Shown piece after piece: positions 1,113 to 45,698 of a stretch of 46,318 nucleotides of DNA; the stretch's first letter is position 1; each line of letters starts with the position of its first letter. Source of the DNA: Terramyces sp. JEL0728. Lineage: Eukaryota > Chytridiomycota > Chytridiomycetes > Rhizophydiales > Terramycetaceae. The DNA lies in NCBI GenBank assembly GCA_027603945.1, contig JADIIU010000101.1, forward strand, positions 1-46,318, read 5' to 3'. The position numbers were made by a program, and so were the translations under genes. Below the pieces are notes generated by a model. It was not told where the DNA came from. It was given only the letters and a program-made list of their open reading frames with translations, and searched no databases.

Positions 1113-3614
1113 ATGCCAAACGGAATTTTTATTGATGGTTTCGGTGTCAGCACACGACGGAGACTGAAAGACACTTTGAAAGGGTTGGATTATAGGTCTA
1201 AAACGGATAATATTGATGCTGGAAATAATATTGCCACCGAAATGTCAATTTCCCCAACCTCAGGAAATCCTGAAGCAGAAATATCAAAAGAAAATCCACA
1301 AGAGTTGCCTCTTATATACATTCATTCTCACCATCCCTCAAATCCCCTTGAAAATAGTAATTTTTATTGATTTTCAGTTTGCAAGGATCCAAATTGTCCA
1401 ATGAATAACCAACCGAGTGAACCAATTGTCGAATCTTTTAAAATTTCGGACAATCGGTACTTTTTGCTAATTAAGCTCACAGTATAATAATAGCAAGAAC
1501 GGGAATTCGCTTTTCGATATCTTTGAAAGTAAAATGAAAGGTAAAGGAGATTATTCGAGTAATTTCTTTGATGAAGTGGATGTATTATCTTCAGTATCGC
1601 AGCAGCAGCATCGGGAAGCAACTTTGTTGAATCACAATCTACATATTAACCAGGAATACGAGAAACCAATCGATTTCAGCAACTTTAACTTTTCAGTGTC
1701 TCCGACAGATTCCTTTATCAATATGTCAATGGCGGTTGGTTGAACAAGAGTAAAATTCCTAAAGACCATTCCATTTGGGGATCTTTTGAAGAATTGCATG
1801 ACAAACCAAAAACCGAAAATGAAGGATATTTGTTGAATTTTTTTGAACTTCACCCAACGGACGCTGTATTAAAGGAGTATTTTCTCTCCGCATTGGATGA
1901 AGAAGCTATTGAGAAGGCACAACTAGATCCTACCAAAGAGGATCTGGCTGTAATCGCCTCTATTGAAACCCTGGAAGATTATTTTATAAAAGCTGCAGCC
2001 TTCAATGCTCAATCTATCAATACTTTGATGTTTTATTTGTATAAATTTACAAATTGGCAATTCTATGGAGATTCCGAATTGGCTACAGCTATACTTCTTC
2101 AGGATGGACTTGGTCTACCGAGCAGAGATTATTATCTGCAAGAAGAGAAACAGGAAAAGGCGAAAGCGTACAAGGAATATATCAAAAGATTGTTGATTGC
2201 CTCTGGAGAATCGCTAGATGAAGCAATGCATAACGTGGGGCTTGTTTACCAGTTGGAATACCAGCTAGCTGAAATATCCCTTCCTCTAGAAGAACTGTGT
2301 GATCCAGCAAAGAATAATACAAAGAAGTCACTGGAGGAATTGCAAAGTGCATTTCCACTGATAGACTGGAAAGGTTATTTCGCAAAGATGGAAATACCAG
2401 ATTCCGTTCATGTTATTATCGAGCCAGTGGAATATTTTGAGCGCTTGTTGGAGCTACTACAGAAAACTGATCTAGCGACATTGAAAATCTACATGAAAGT
2501 ACGATATTTATCCACAGCAGCACCATTTTTACACAAAGAGATGCAGCTAATCCATTTTGAATATCAGGATAAAGCGCTATACGGTGTGCAGGAGATGGAG
2601 CCAAAATGGAAAAGGGCATTTCAATTGGTGTGTGATATTTCAGATTTAATAAGCCAATATGACGTTTTAACCCGTTCAACAACCTCGATTACATTTAATA
2701 ATATTTTTACTTATATCAATACAGCATTTGAACACAGATTAGAGAGTATCAAATGGCTTTCAAAAGAATCTAAACAAAATGCCGTCAAGATGCTCTCGCA
2801 GGTCCAGAAAGGTGTTGGGCACTTTGAAAAGAAAGCTTTTACCAAGTTGGAAGGTAAAGTACTCAAAACGAATTCTTTATGGGATAATCACAAATTGGCT
2901 GCAAAATATTTAAATCACGCCAATAATTTCTATCATAAATCTGTAGATAGAACTCGGATATCGGCCATTATGAAGATTATTCGGAACAGTACCCCTTTCA
3001 AGATATGTTTTCCAACATTTTACGAACAACCACCCTTCCATTACCTTAACCCTCCCTCAAAGCTGCTTGGAGACCCAGCGTTTACATTTGGTGGTTTTGG
3101 TATGATATATGCTCGAGAGTTGTTATACGCACTTGATCTTCAAAATGCCAAATATGATAGGAAAGGCGATATTAGCGACTGGTTAACTGAAGATGACAAG
3201 GAATATTATTACGAGCAAACTGGACGTATTATCGATCAGTTTGAACAATACAATAGTCAAGGAAAAGCAAATAATGCAAAATTTGGAGCAGGTCACAACA
3301 TAGCAGATCTTGGAGCACTTTCAATTGCATTTCAAGCCTTTCAGGACTTCAAAAAGGAATATGGCGATAAGGTTAAACCTTCCACATATTTGTATTCAAC
3401 CGACCAAGAATTCTTCATTGCTTGGGCACAATTATGTCGGGTGTTGGTAACAAACGAGCAAGCTGAATTGGATGCCAGCACAAGCTGCTTTGCCCCAAGA
3501 GAATTGCGCGTTGATGGACCGCTGTCAAACTTGAATGAATTTTATGAAGCATTTAATGTTAAACCTGGAGATAGCATGTATCGGCCTCCTGAAAAGCGTG
3601 TTTCGCTGTGGTAA
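1113..3614 (+). CDS. M13 peptidase-family pseudoenzyme, copy B (one-base frameshift)
   Basis: Second M13 gene. My model starts at ATG 1113, removes introns 1357-1377 (21 nt) and 1457-1475 (19 nt), and gives about 820 residues. The first intron joins to the CKDPNC motif, matching the Cys-x4-Cys opening of M13 ectodomains. At 1711-1718 the frame shifts by one base: upstream reads SPTDSF, downstream reads YQYVNGGWL, together the M13 signature DxFYQYxxGGW. One T seems to be missing from a T-run; no GT...AG pair of 19-22 nt repairs it. The zinc site is dead: HExxH is RELLY and ENIADLGG is HNIADLGA. No signal peptide or membrane segment is seen. It is either a real pseudogene or an intact gene with a sequencing error at a homopolymer. 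Confidence 0.8.
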
Positions 3615-3694
3615 AGCAGATTCCTCATTTACTTGGCATTAGTTTTTCCTATTCGTAATAATAAAATTGTTTCAATATCGACGGCCCGGCAAGC

Positions 3695-3976
3695 TTGAGT
3701 TGATTTAGGTGGTCGCTCTCAAAGCATTCCAAGCGTACGGGAAGATCGTTTGGATCAAACCGAGTCCAGCTCGGTAGATTCACTCCCGAACAGGAATTTT
3801 TTGTTGCCCGGGCACAAGCATGGAGAAGATTGATTACAAAAGATGAAGCTTTGTGAGAATCGCAACCGATCCTCACTCACCTGGAGAACACCGTACTAAT
3901 GGACGGTTATGTGCTGCATTTGGAATCACTGATATGACTGTATGTTCAGAACCCAAGAAAGAGAGTCTCATGGTAA
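3695..3976 (+). pseudogene. M13 peptidase relic, third tandem copy
   Basis: Decayed 3' end of another M13 gene, read in pieces across frames: a DLGG block, KAFQAY, then LGRFTPEQEFFVARAQAW followed by ITKDEAL and a TGA, then DPHSPGEHRTNG and a broken end KKRVS-W just before TAA at 3974-3976. Several frameshifts and stops separate the pieces. Unlike the two neighbouring copies, the relic keeps the canonical DLGG and DPHSPGE motifs, so its ancestor was probably an active, ordinary M13 peptidase. Boundaries are approximate. Confidence 0.75.
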
Positions 3977-44538: not shown

Positions 44539-45055
44539 AGGCAAAAAAAATTCACTCTATTAATCGTCGAAAATAGTCTAGATTCTCTTTATTGAATTTT
44601 AATTATTCACTTTTTTGAATGGGAATTTGAATCTTTGGCTGCATTTGATACTGCTAGGAAACAAATCTGCGGATATTATTGCCAGGAACCGCGTATATTT
44701 TAAAACAAAGGTTCAGTAATAGTCAGCACTGTTAGTGGTTGCATTCATCTCTTTCGCCGTTCATATATATCTGCCCGAGAACCTGTATTATTTCTAGTTG
44801 GCCTAACTGTATACTCTACTGTGGAACAGATGGTGCGAAGAGTTGCTATTCACTTCCGCTGGATCTCAAAGAGCTGCAGAATTCGTGGAGACTGCCATTT
44901 AGAACTTGCAGCAATGTTGGCAATCGGGACGTATTTGCTGCATTCAGATCTTGACTCGCCAGTAAAACAAAAGAGGACTAATAAATCGTTTCTTAATCTC
45001 TCGTTTTGACACTTCAAGTGCATTTCAGTTTTGGAAAAAAAATTCATCTCAAATC
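44539..45055. other. Divergent promoter spacer, no clear gene
   Basis: 517 bp between the divergent HeH gene and NDUFS8. A plus-strand frame is open from about 44703 to 45009, but has no early ATG and no family I recognise. No RNA gene was identified. Confidence 0.4.
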
Positions 45056-45698
45056 ATGATTAGACGATTCACTCCAGTTAATTCAATCCGCCCATATTCT
45101 TCAAGAAGAATCGACGAATACGCTCGAGAAATTAGAAGAGCAAACCTCGCACAGAAACAAGAAAACAAGCAACCACTATTGGATCGTATTTCTCAGCAAT
45201 TGTTATTTACAGAACTCATCCGAACAATGTGGGTAGTGGGGGAACAGATGTTCAAACCAGCTTATACTATTATGTATCCATTTGAAAAAGGTCCATTATC
45301 ACCTCGCTTCCGTGGCGAGCATGCGCTCAGAAGATACCCAACAGGTTATTAATTCTAATTGTAGGTGAAGAGCGCTGTATTGCTTGCAAATTGTGCGAAG
45401 CTATTTGCCCTGCTCAAGCGATTACTATTGAAGCGGAACCAAGAAACGATGGAAGCAGAAGAACAACTCGTTACGATATCGACATGACAAAATGTATTTA
45501 CTGTGGTTTCTGTCAAGAAGCATGTCCAGTTGATGCTATTGTTGAAGGACCAAATTTTGAATATGCCACAGAAACTCACGAAGAATTGTTGTACAACAAG
45601 GAAAAACTCTTGGCAAACGGAGACAAGTGGGAGGTAATTGTTGTTAAAATTAGGCTGAAATTGCTCGCAACTTGAAAGCTGATCATCTGTATCGTTAA
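45056..45698 (+). CDS. NDUFS8: Complex I 23-kDa subunit NDUFS8 (TYKY)
   Basis: 200 residues after removing two 20-nt introns (45345-45364 and 45634-45653). A basic, Ser/Arg-rich N-terminus ([18 protein letters not shown]) fits mitochondrial import. The protein binds two [4Fe-4S] clusters through [12 protein letters not shown] (Cys101, 104, 107, 111) and [12 protein letters not shown] (Cys140, 143, 146, 150), passing electrons within the peripheral arm of NADH:ubiquinone reductase. [18 protein letters not shown] across the first splice matches the family closely. The stop overlaps AATAAA. Its presence indicates a respiring mitochondrion with complex I, unlike Rozella or microsporidia. Confidence 0.95.

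Follow-up and report, generated by a model that had tools for sequence, protein, structure and literature searches.

The contig JADIIU010000101.1 of the chytrid Terramyces sp. JEL0728 (assembly GCA_027603945.1) is considered here for the introns of 19-22 nt that interrupt its genes. The window is this whole contig, 46,318 nt in length, of a 15.0-Mb genome in 231 contigs. An earlier note on this DNA had placed 48 such introns by continuity of conserved proteins, with 12, 21, 11 and 4 at 19, 20, 21 and 22 nt. In the present analysis 41 were placed: 36 by a self-written two-strand hidden Markov model (HMM) gene finder that permits GT..AG introns only (9, 16, 7 and 4 at the same four lengths), and 5 by protein continuity, giving 10, 18, 9 and 4 in all, each with GT..AG ends. 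The HMM has blind spots for small exons and for 21-nt introns lacking a stop codon, so the figure of 48 is plausible. The introns placed, and the basis of each, are:

6017..6036, plus strand: 20-nt intron, SF3A2 (spliceosomal protein) gene; HMM, spliced protein matches PF16835 SF3A2
6772..6790, minus strand: 19-nt intron; HMM only
12982..13000, minus strand: 19-nt intron, ARL3-like gene; HMM, spliced protein has an Arf-family match along almost its full length
13107..13126, minus strand: 20-nt intron, ARL3-like gene; HMM, spliced Arf-family match
13429..13449, minus strand: 21-nt intron, ARL3-like gene, directly behind the start codon; protein continuity, 31-residue stretch restored
15169..15190, plus strand: 22-nt intron; HMM only
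16424..16444, minus strand: 21-nt intron, CLU gene; HMM, spliced protein has CLU, eIF3_p135 and TPR domains
17081..17100, minus strand: 20-nt intron, CLU gene; HMM, Pfam domains of spliced protein
17430..17450, minus strand: 21-nt intron, CLU gene; HMM, Pfam domains of spliced protein
17800..17821, minus strand: 22-nt intron, CLU gene; HMM, Pfam domains of spliced protein
17952..17971, minus strand: 20-nt intron, CLU gene; HMM, Pfam domains of spliced protein
18198..18217, minus strand: 20-nt intron, CLU gene; HMM, Pfam domains of spliced protein
18404..18423, minus strand: 20-nt intron, CLU gene; HMM, Pfam domains of spliced protein
18526..18544, minus strand: 19-nt intron; HMM only, two genes merged by the run here
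18657..18675, minus strand: 19-nt intron; HMM only, two genes merged by the run here
18985..19004, minus strand: 20-nt intron, PH-domain protein gene; HMM, PF00169
19985..20005, plus strand: 21-nt intron, Es2 (nuclear protein) gene; HMM, PF09751
23711..23730, plus strand: 20-nt intron, coiled-coil protein gene (coiled coil by eye); HMM only
24702..24720, plus strand: 19-nt intron, GRP94-type HSP90 gene; HMM
24849..24868, plus strand: 20-nt intron, GRP94-type HSP90 gene; HMM
24953..24972, plus strand: 20-nt intron, GRP94-type HSP90 gene; HMM, GTIAKSGTEEF restored
26497..26517, plus strand: 21-nt intron, GRP94-type HSP90 gene; HMM, EINPSHPL restored
28088..28109, minus strand: 22-nt intron; HMM only
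28410..28428, minus strand: 19-nt intron; HMM only
29642..29661, plus strand: 20-nt intron, acyltransferase gene; HMM, PF01757
30751..30771, minus strand: 21-nt intron, RCY1 gene; protein continuity
30835..30853, minus strand: 19-nt intron, RCY1 gene, on the far side of a 63-nt exon from 30751..30771; protein continuity
31177..31196, minus strand: 20-nt intron, RCY1 gene; HMM and spliced protein
31345..31363, minus strand: 19-nt intron, RCY1 gene; HMM and spliced protein
31795..31813, minus strand: 19-nt intron, RCY1 gene; HMM and spliced protein
32296..32316, minus strand: 21-nt intron, RCY1 gene; HMM and spliced protein
37094..37113, plus strand: 20-nt intron, gene named ATG2; HMM
37585..37603, plus strand: 19-nt intron, gene named ATG2; HMM
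37871..37890, plus strand: 20-nt intron, gene named ATG2; HMM
39301..39320, plus strand: 20-nt intron, gene named ATG2; HMM
39460..39480, plus strand: 21-nt intron, gene named ATG2; HMM
40089..40110, plus strand: 22-nt intron, gene named ATG2; HMM
40999..41018, plus strand: 20-nt intron, short-chain dehydrogenase gene; HMM, PF00106
44297..44317, minus strand: 21-nt intron, gene with thymopoietin/LEM-like N-terminus; HMM, PF08198, the match not crossing the junction
45345..45364, plus strand: 20-nt intron, NDUFS8 gene; protein continuity, 14 residues restored, 4Fe-4S domains
45634..45653, plus strand: 20-nt intron, NDUFS8 gene; protein continuity, 21 residues restored

The name ATG2 is that of the earlier note; seven introns outside that gene come from the HMM alone, and for some of the others a Pfam match identifies the gene but does not prove the junction. 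Removal of tiny introns restores the reading frames of RCY1, ARL3, NDUFS8, SF3A2, CLU and the GRP94-type HSP90, splicing over both of its introns restores that of RPL18, and this regaining of a conserved frame is a property of U2-type introns. After splicing, the RCY1 product is 850 aa long and has F-box and Sec10_HB domains (Pfam), and the GRP94-type protein ends in HDEL. A CDC5 label for the gene at 19523-20743 was wrong, Pfam identifying it as Es2 (PF09751). Two of 38 HMM predictions in the window were dropped as lying outside 19-22 nt, namely one of 26 nt with a weak motif in an M13 peptidase gene, and one of 103 nt that is not a single intron, consisting of two tiny introns and the exon between them.

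For the wider sample, the window was read together with twenty 10-kb stretches from 17 other contigs, amounting to 246,318 bases of 39% GC, roughly 1.6% of the genome; short loci surrounding genes that were searched for were read in addition (labelled sequences outside the window carry L and a number, e.g. L009). With a weak codon score and plain joining of open reading frames (ORFs) the length peak was only hinted at, and an early HMM with a stiff intron cost predicted few introns. The peak is carried by runs in which the intron-length prior was flat over 10-300 nt and GT..AG was the sole splice signal. There, 66 of 229 predicted introns were of 19-22 nt, against 9, 8, 3, 7, 3, 1 and 7 when seven other dinucleotide pairs were put in place of GT..AG in an otherwise unchanged HMM. 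A preceding GT..AG run had served for retraining the models of this first flat run, which handicaps the decoys, and the test was therefore repeated with intron-naive models, trained on long ORFs and non-ORF sequence only; the outcome was 53 of 215, against 9, 3, 2, 9, 5, 4 and 8. All other length bins of GT..AG in the first flat run were within or below the decoy range, and predictions longer than 40 nt, which in both flat runs were at or below decoy level, were taken as noise, though a few in ribosomal-protein genes later proved real. GT..AG ends above chance are, again, what U2-type introns have. The earlier assertion that all the introns are GT..AG is borne out to the extent that decoys can test it, the HMM admitting no other ends.

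When a splice motif was allowed while length was kept flat over 15-120 nt, 179 of 203 introns were at 19-22 nt, a single one had 18 nt and lengths of 15-17 were absent, and codon-shuffled versions of the predicted genes, serving as null, gave 15 introns, none of them at 19-22 nt. Introns of 18-24 nt from an earlier run were the source of the motif weights, whether learned or set, so this run is not fully independent. The final run, combining motif and length prior, yielded 219 introns in 246 kb, 57 of 19 nt, 93 of 20, 41 of 21, 19 of 22, one of 24 and eight longer, compared with 4, 1 and 3 per 161 kb in three codon-shuffled nulls. With 210 of 219 at 19-22 nt, the distribution is narrow and lies below about 25 nt, as in a genome of uniformly tiny introns, and the tight peak claimed earlier stands. 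Introns of 24 nt or less (211 in all) are in 81 of 147 predicted genes, and tiny introns occur in all 21 sequences sampled; extrapolation suggests a genome-wide total of roughly 13,000. Among the longer predictions, one of 28 nt is the end of a 155-nt RPL22 intron, and one of 117 nt in RPL7 is really 123 nt. An in-frame stop is present in all 42 predicted introns whose length is a multiple of three, a set biased by the HMM missing stopless ones. Strong-motif segments of 19-22 nt inside predicted exons number 27, of which 5 are antisense and one, in the U2AF65 gene, is a real intron missed by the HMM.

Comparison with known structures is pertinent to the exactness of the junctions. In the gene for the PP2A scaffold subunit (PP2A-A, L009) all six junctions of HMM introns are gap-free against PDB chain 9j5i. 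A seventh intron there, of 21 nt, stopless, with GT..AG ends and a TAAC branch site, was missed by the HMM and seen as a 7-residue insertion in the PDB alignment, the residues having no counterpart in Globomyces. The four HMM introns of the cystathionine gamma-lyase gene (L018) likewise have junctions gap-free against the best PDB alignment, the one exception being a single-residue gap some two residues away from the first of them.

Intron anatomy was studied in the 177 introns common to the motif-free and motif runs. At the donor, the base is A at +3 in 90% of them and at +4 in 59%; +5 is G in just 16%, +6 is T in 57%, and information beyond GTA is low. A T[AG]AY branch site is found in 148 and, in 128, the motif has 5 or 6 nt after its A, where interior shuffles lead to an expectation of 12.9; the TAAY-like branch sequence close to the AG that had been described is therefore real as a sequence feature, and its complementarity to GUAGUA of U2 small nuclear RNA (snRNA) is that of U2-type introns. 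Among 145 introns in which a branch site is close to the end, the branch A is at position 14 or 15 and is followed by 5 or 6 nt in 32, 33, 29 and 24 introns for the four combinations, with the two choices unassociated (Fisher p 0.58). The lengths follow from these spacings, 19 being 14+5, 20 either 14+6 or 15+5, and 21 being 15+6. In six of the 145 an AG 3 nt past the branch A is, by the HMM's choice, skipped for one at 6; for the phase 0 SF3A2 intron at 6017-6036, splicing at the nearer AG would keep a TAG in frame.

That every intron is of 19-22 nt does not hold genome-wide, and in this the genome departs from the uniform tiny-intron kind. Four cytosolic ribosomal-protein genes, picked by eye among predicted proteins and confirmed by Pfam, each have one longer intron:

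L009:4814-4858: RPS3 intron, 45 nt
L043:1497 to L007:43: RPL18 intron, 47 nt, right after the ATG
L008:3082-3204: RPL7 intron, 123 nt
L028:534-688: RPL22 intron, 155 nt

Many longer introns elsewhere had been named in advance as grounds for abandoning the generalization; some exist, in these four genes, and the predominance of 19-22 nt in the final run is retained. The RPL18 product, with both introns removed, spans the Pfam L18 family from one end to the other. In the long introns the branch A is 6-7 nt from the end, at position 39-148. An L24-type ribosomal-protein gene, probably mitochondrial, has introns of 19 and 20 nt only. The RPL7 123-nt intron holds a sequence like the C/D small nucleolar RNA (snoRNA) snR39, at 28.7 bits and E 0.004, below the gathering score of 40, and no RNA family reached its gathering score in the search of this intron. 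Yeast snR39 likewise lies within an RPL7 intron, and this common host strengthens the match. A search of the RPL22 locus and of the stretch just upstream of RPL18 detected no RNA family. G at +5 is present in all six ribosomal-protein introns compared (the four long ones, and tiny ones of 21 and 23 nt in RPL7 and RPL18) whereas of the remaining tiny introns only 28 of 176 have it (Fisher p 3e-5), a post hoc comparison on four genes that leaves out a 44-nt prediction at the RPL7 5′ end.

The machinery for recognizing such introns is recognizable in part. U2 snRNA was found at 140 bits with GUAGUA kept, and Prp8 through a match to RRM_4, a Prp8 domain. U2AF65, whose gene has introns of 20, 20, 19 and 19 nt of its own, matches human U2AF65 chains over RRM1-RRM2 and UHM, with a U2AF59 fragment at the N-terminus. 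With the SF1 gene, a U1C zinc finger over cut-off and the SF3A2 gene in the window, the inventory so far has U2AF65, SF1, U1C, SF3A2 and Prp8 present and U1-70K not found. Several candidates were rejected: U6-like matches of 27 bits are two near-identical repeat copies (L024, L025) with no AGC triad by eye, L036 had no U6 match, and L042, considered for U1-70K, by eye resembles a Mei2-type RRM.

As to the organism, the best PP2A-A relative among 2517 matches is that of Globomyces pollinis-pini (72% identity), followed by Batrachochytrium salamandrivorans (68%). A tree of 48 of the 120 listed proteins groups it with Globomyces at support 1.0 and then with Batrachochytrium at 0.995. Both genera belong to Rhizophydiales. 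By this one gene the host is a fungus, a chytrid of Rhizophydiales near Globomyces, and the earlier wording 'fungus-like' was too cautious.

Taken together, these segments are very probably conventional spliceosomal introns of U2 type in a chytrid fungus, reduced to roughly the shortest length that its spliceosome handles. GUAGUA of U2 snRNA would pair with the yTAAY branch site, whose A is mostly at 14 or 15 and is followed by 5 or 6 nt including the AG; two one-base choices would then yield 19, 20 and 21 nt, with small deviations accounting for 22-24. The segments would be spliced in vivo, with lariat excision. The lengths fall off abruptly below 19 nt and the spacings are fixed, which points to a functional floor; deletion pressure may have driven nearly all introns to it, near 14+5 nt. 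Introns with another job would have stayed longer, through selection in ribosomal-protein genes, for the snoRNA in RPL7 and perhaps for regulation in the others; in them the branch-to-AG distance is nearly unchanged (6-7) with only the 5′ part extended, and the donors have +5G. It had been held that the spliceosome here must fit its sites into about 20 nt. That it can work in 20 nt agrees with the present data; confinement to 20 nt does not, given introns of 45-155 nt.

A number of observations weigh against this reading. T[AG]AY is lacking from the last part of 29 of the 177 introns, and in 27 of the 145 with a near-end branch site the spacing is outside the four combinations. Five final-run predictions, of 26, 44, 49, 56 and 62 nt, also stand outside 19-22 nt. 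The introns are predicted from the DNA, and the later runs, with their length prior and short-intron motif weights, favour what they find; the two flat decoy-tested runs do not. The U2AF65 gene is split by introns, which puts its profile match under the curated cut-off, and the zf-U1 search that detected U1C also matched in an E. coli control. Genome searches did not find U6 snRNA, to which as an absence little weight attaches, nor did a search find U1 snRNA, which does not show that it is absent. None of 16 RRM matches was clearly U1-70K, and its absence is likewise not shown.

The very narrow lengths and fixed spacings might be thought to reflect an obligatory ruler, with a spliceosome recognizing only a unit of 19-22 nt and leaving longer introns unspliceable. 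This is very improbable, as the RPS3, RPL18, RPL7 and RPL22 introns interrupt conserved frames and need removal too, and the RPL18 protein left after removal of both introns matches its family throughout. Given the long introns, the spliceosome is not expected to be held to the floor, and the best account of the uniformity is shrinkage and not such a ruler. A different and unlikely proposal is of two recognition modes, in which tiny introns would be recognized via SF1, U2AF, U2 and U6 with U1 marginal, and ribosomal-protein ones via U1 and a strong donor. The distribution of +5G, the little donor information past GTA and the failure to find U1-70K are in its favour. The U1C zinc finger is present, however, and the tiny introns of ribosomal-protein genes also have +5G, so that donor strength may track expression level; the post hoc nature of the comparison, with its omitted 44-nt prediction, is also relevant. 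The specific form of two intron classes served by one fungal nuclear spliceosome, thousands of about 20 nt whose lengths come from two independent one-base choices (14/15 and 5/6) and with U1 pairing little or not at all beyond GUA, and a few long ribosomal-protein ones with a strong U1-type donor, is correspondingly doubtful; if true, U1-dependent and U1-light routes would be separate within one cell, a distinction open to experimental test.

Being short, the segments might conceivably be passed over at a different stage, through programmed translational bypassing or through removal as DNA elements in the manner of ciliate internal eliminated sequences (IESs). GT..AG standing out among eight dinucleotide pairs, the fit of the branch motif to U2 GUAGUA, the presence of spliceosomal genes and a Globomyces relative without the inserted PP2A-A residues make such non-spliceosomal removal hardly credible. 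The chance that the pattern is an artefact, whether of indels in sequencing or assembly or of overfitting in the gene models, is close to nil even though the introns are predicted from the DNA: GT/AG segments of 19-22 nt with a placed branch motif are unlike random indels, the final-run nulls gave 1-4 introns against 219, and the segments are in every sequence sampled. Worn-down U2-type introns remain the preferred explanation.

Two other features of the window may be mentioned. Eight or nine look-alike secreted proteins are encoded at 6596-12317 (minus strand), 21387-22328 (plus strand) and 34191-35465 (plus strand), nearly all without introns. Most start with GSPxC after the signal peptide, several have a hydrophobic C-terminal stretch as in glycosylphosphatidylinositol (GPI) anchoring, and the two members scanned had no Pfam match. 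Two related M13-type peptidase copies adjoin at 1-1019, reaching the contig start, and at 1534-3611, the latter matching both Pfam M13 domains.

Tiny introns are known from other lineages. The mikrocytids Mikrocytos mackini and Paramikrocytos canceri (Rhizaria) have introns of 16-17 nt, M. mackini having 224 of them and a spliceosome reduced to 17-19 identified proteins with U2, U4 and U6 (PMC10245619). They are alike in having a nuclear genome with nearly one intron length and a conserved intron sequence; the present case differs in having 210 predicted introns in 246 kb alone, a peak at 20, a fungal host and longer ribosomal-protein introns. A deletion bias balanced by a threshold was proposed for mikrocytid introns (PMC10245619), and the shrinkage envisaged above agrees with such a balance. 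In the heterotrich ciliate Stentor coeruleus introns are of 15-16 nt (PMC9505925), with the branch A fixed (10 of 15, 11 of 16), 5 nt after it as here, and U2AF, U1C and U2 GUAGUA kept; the distance from the 5′ end to the branch A is 10-11 there and mostly 14-15 here, and there is no strong branch consensus there, in contrast to yTAAY here. Chlorarachniophyte nucleomorph introns are of 18-21 bp (PMC10245619), almost the same range, though in a relict algal nucleus inside another cell and not in a 15.0-Mb fungal genome. Paramecium and Nyctotherus likewise have ultra-short introns genome-wide, of about 25 bp (PMC5014332), longer than those here. Of the parallels drawn earlier, that with nucleomorphs is apt in length range, and the description of some ciliate introns as slightly longer does not cover Stentor, whose introns are shorter. 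Searches of the open-licence literature, outside which most subscription papers and preprints lie, gave among the matches listed no description of such introns for chytrids or any other fungi, in accord with the earlier note; the word 'intron' is absent from the main text of PMC5701793 (Paramicrosporidium) and PMC9926174 (Batrachochytrium).

A tandem array at L004:1-9880 has nine similar small membrane proteins, five with a single predicted intron of 19-20 nt; a piece of one member had no Pfam match. It could serve for study of intron gain and loss between close copies.

Fungi would join, for the first time as far as the open-licence literature shows, the few lineages with introns at the lower limit. 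With U2AF65, SF1 and U1C, which act in early intron recognition, easily found and long introns in the same cell, the cause of the lower limit (branch A at 14/15, then 5/6 nt) and the need of both classes for U1 become open to study. From a practical perspective, gene finders with a larger minimum intron length would break many genes of such chytrids, and broken gene models could lower the completeness scores of published chytrid assemblies.

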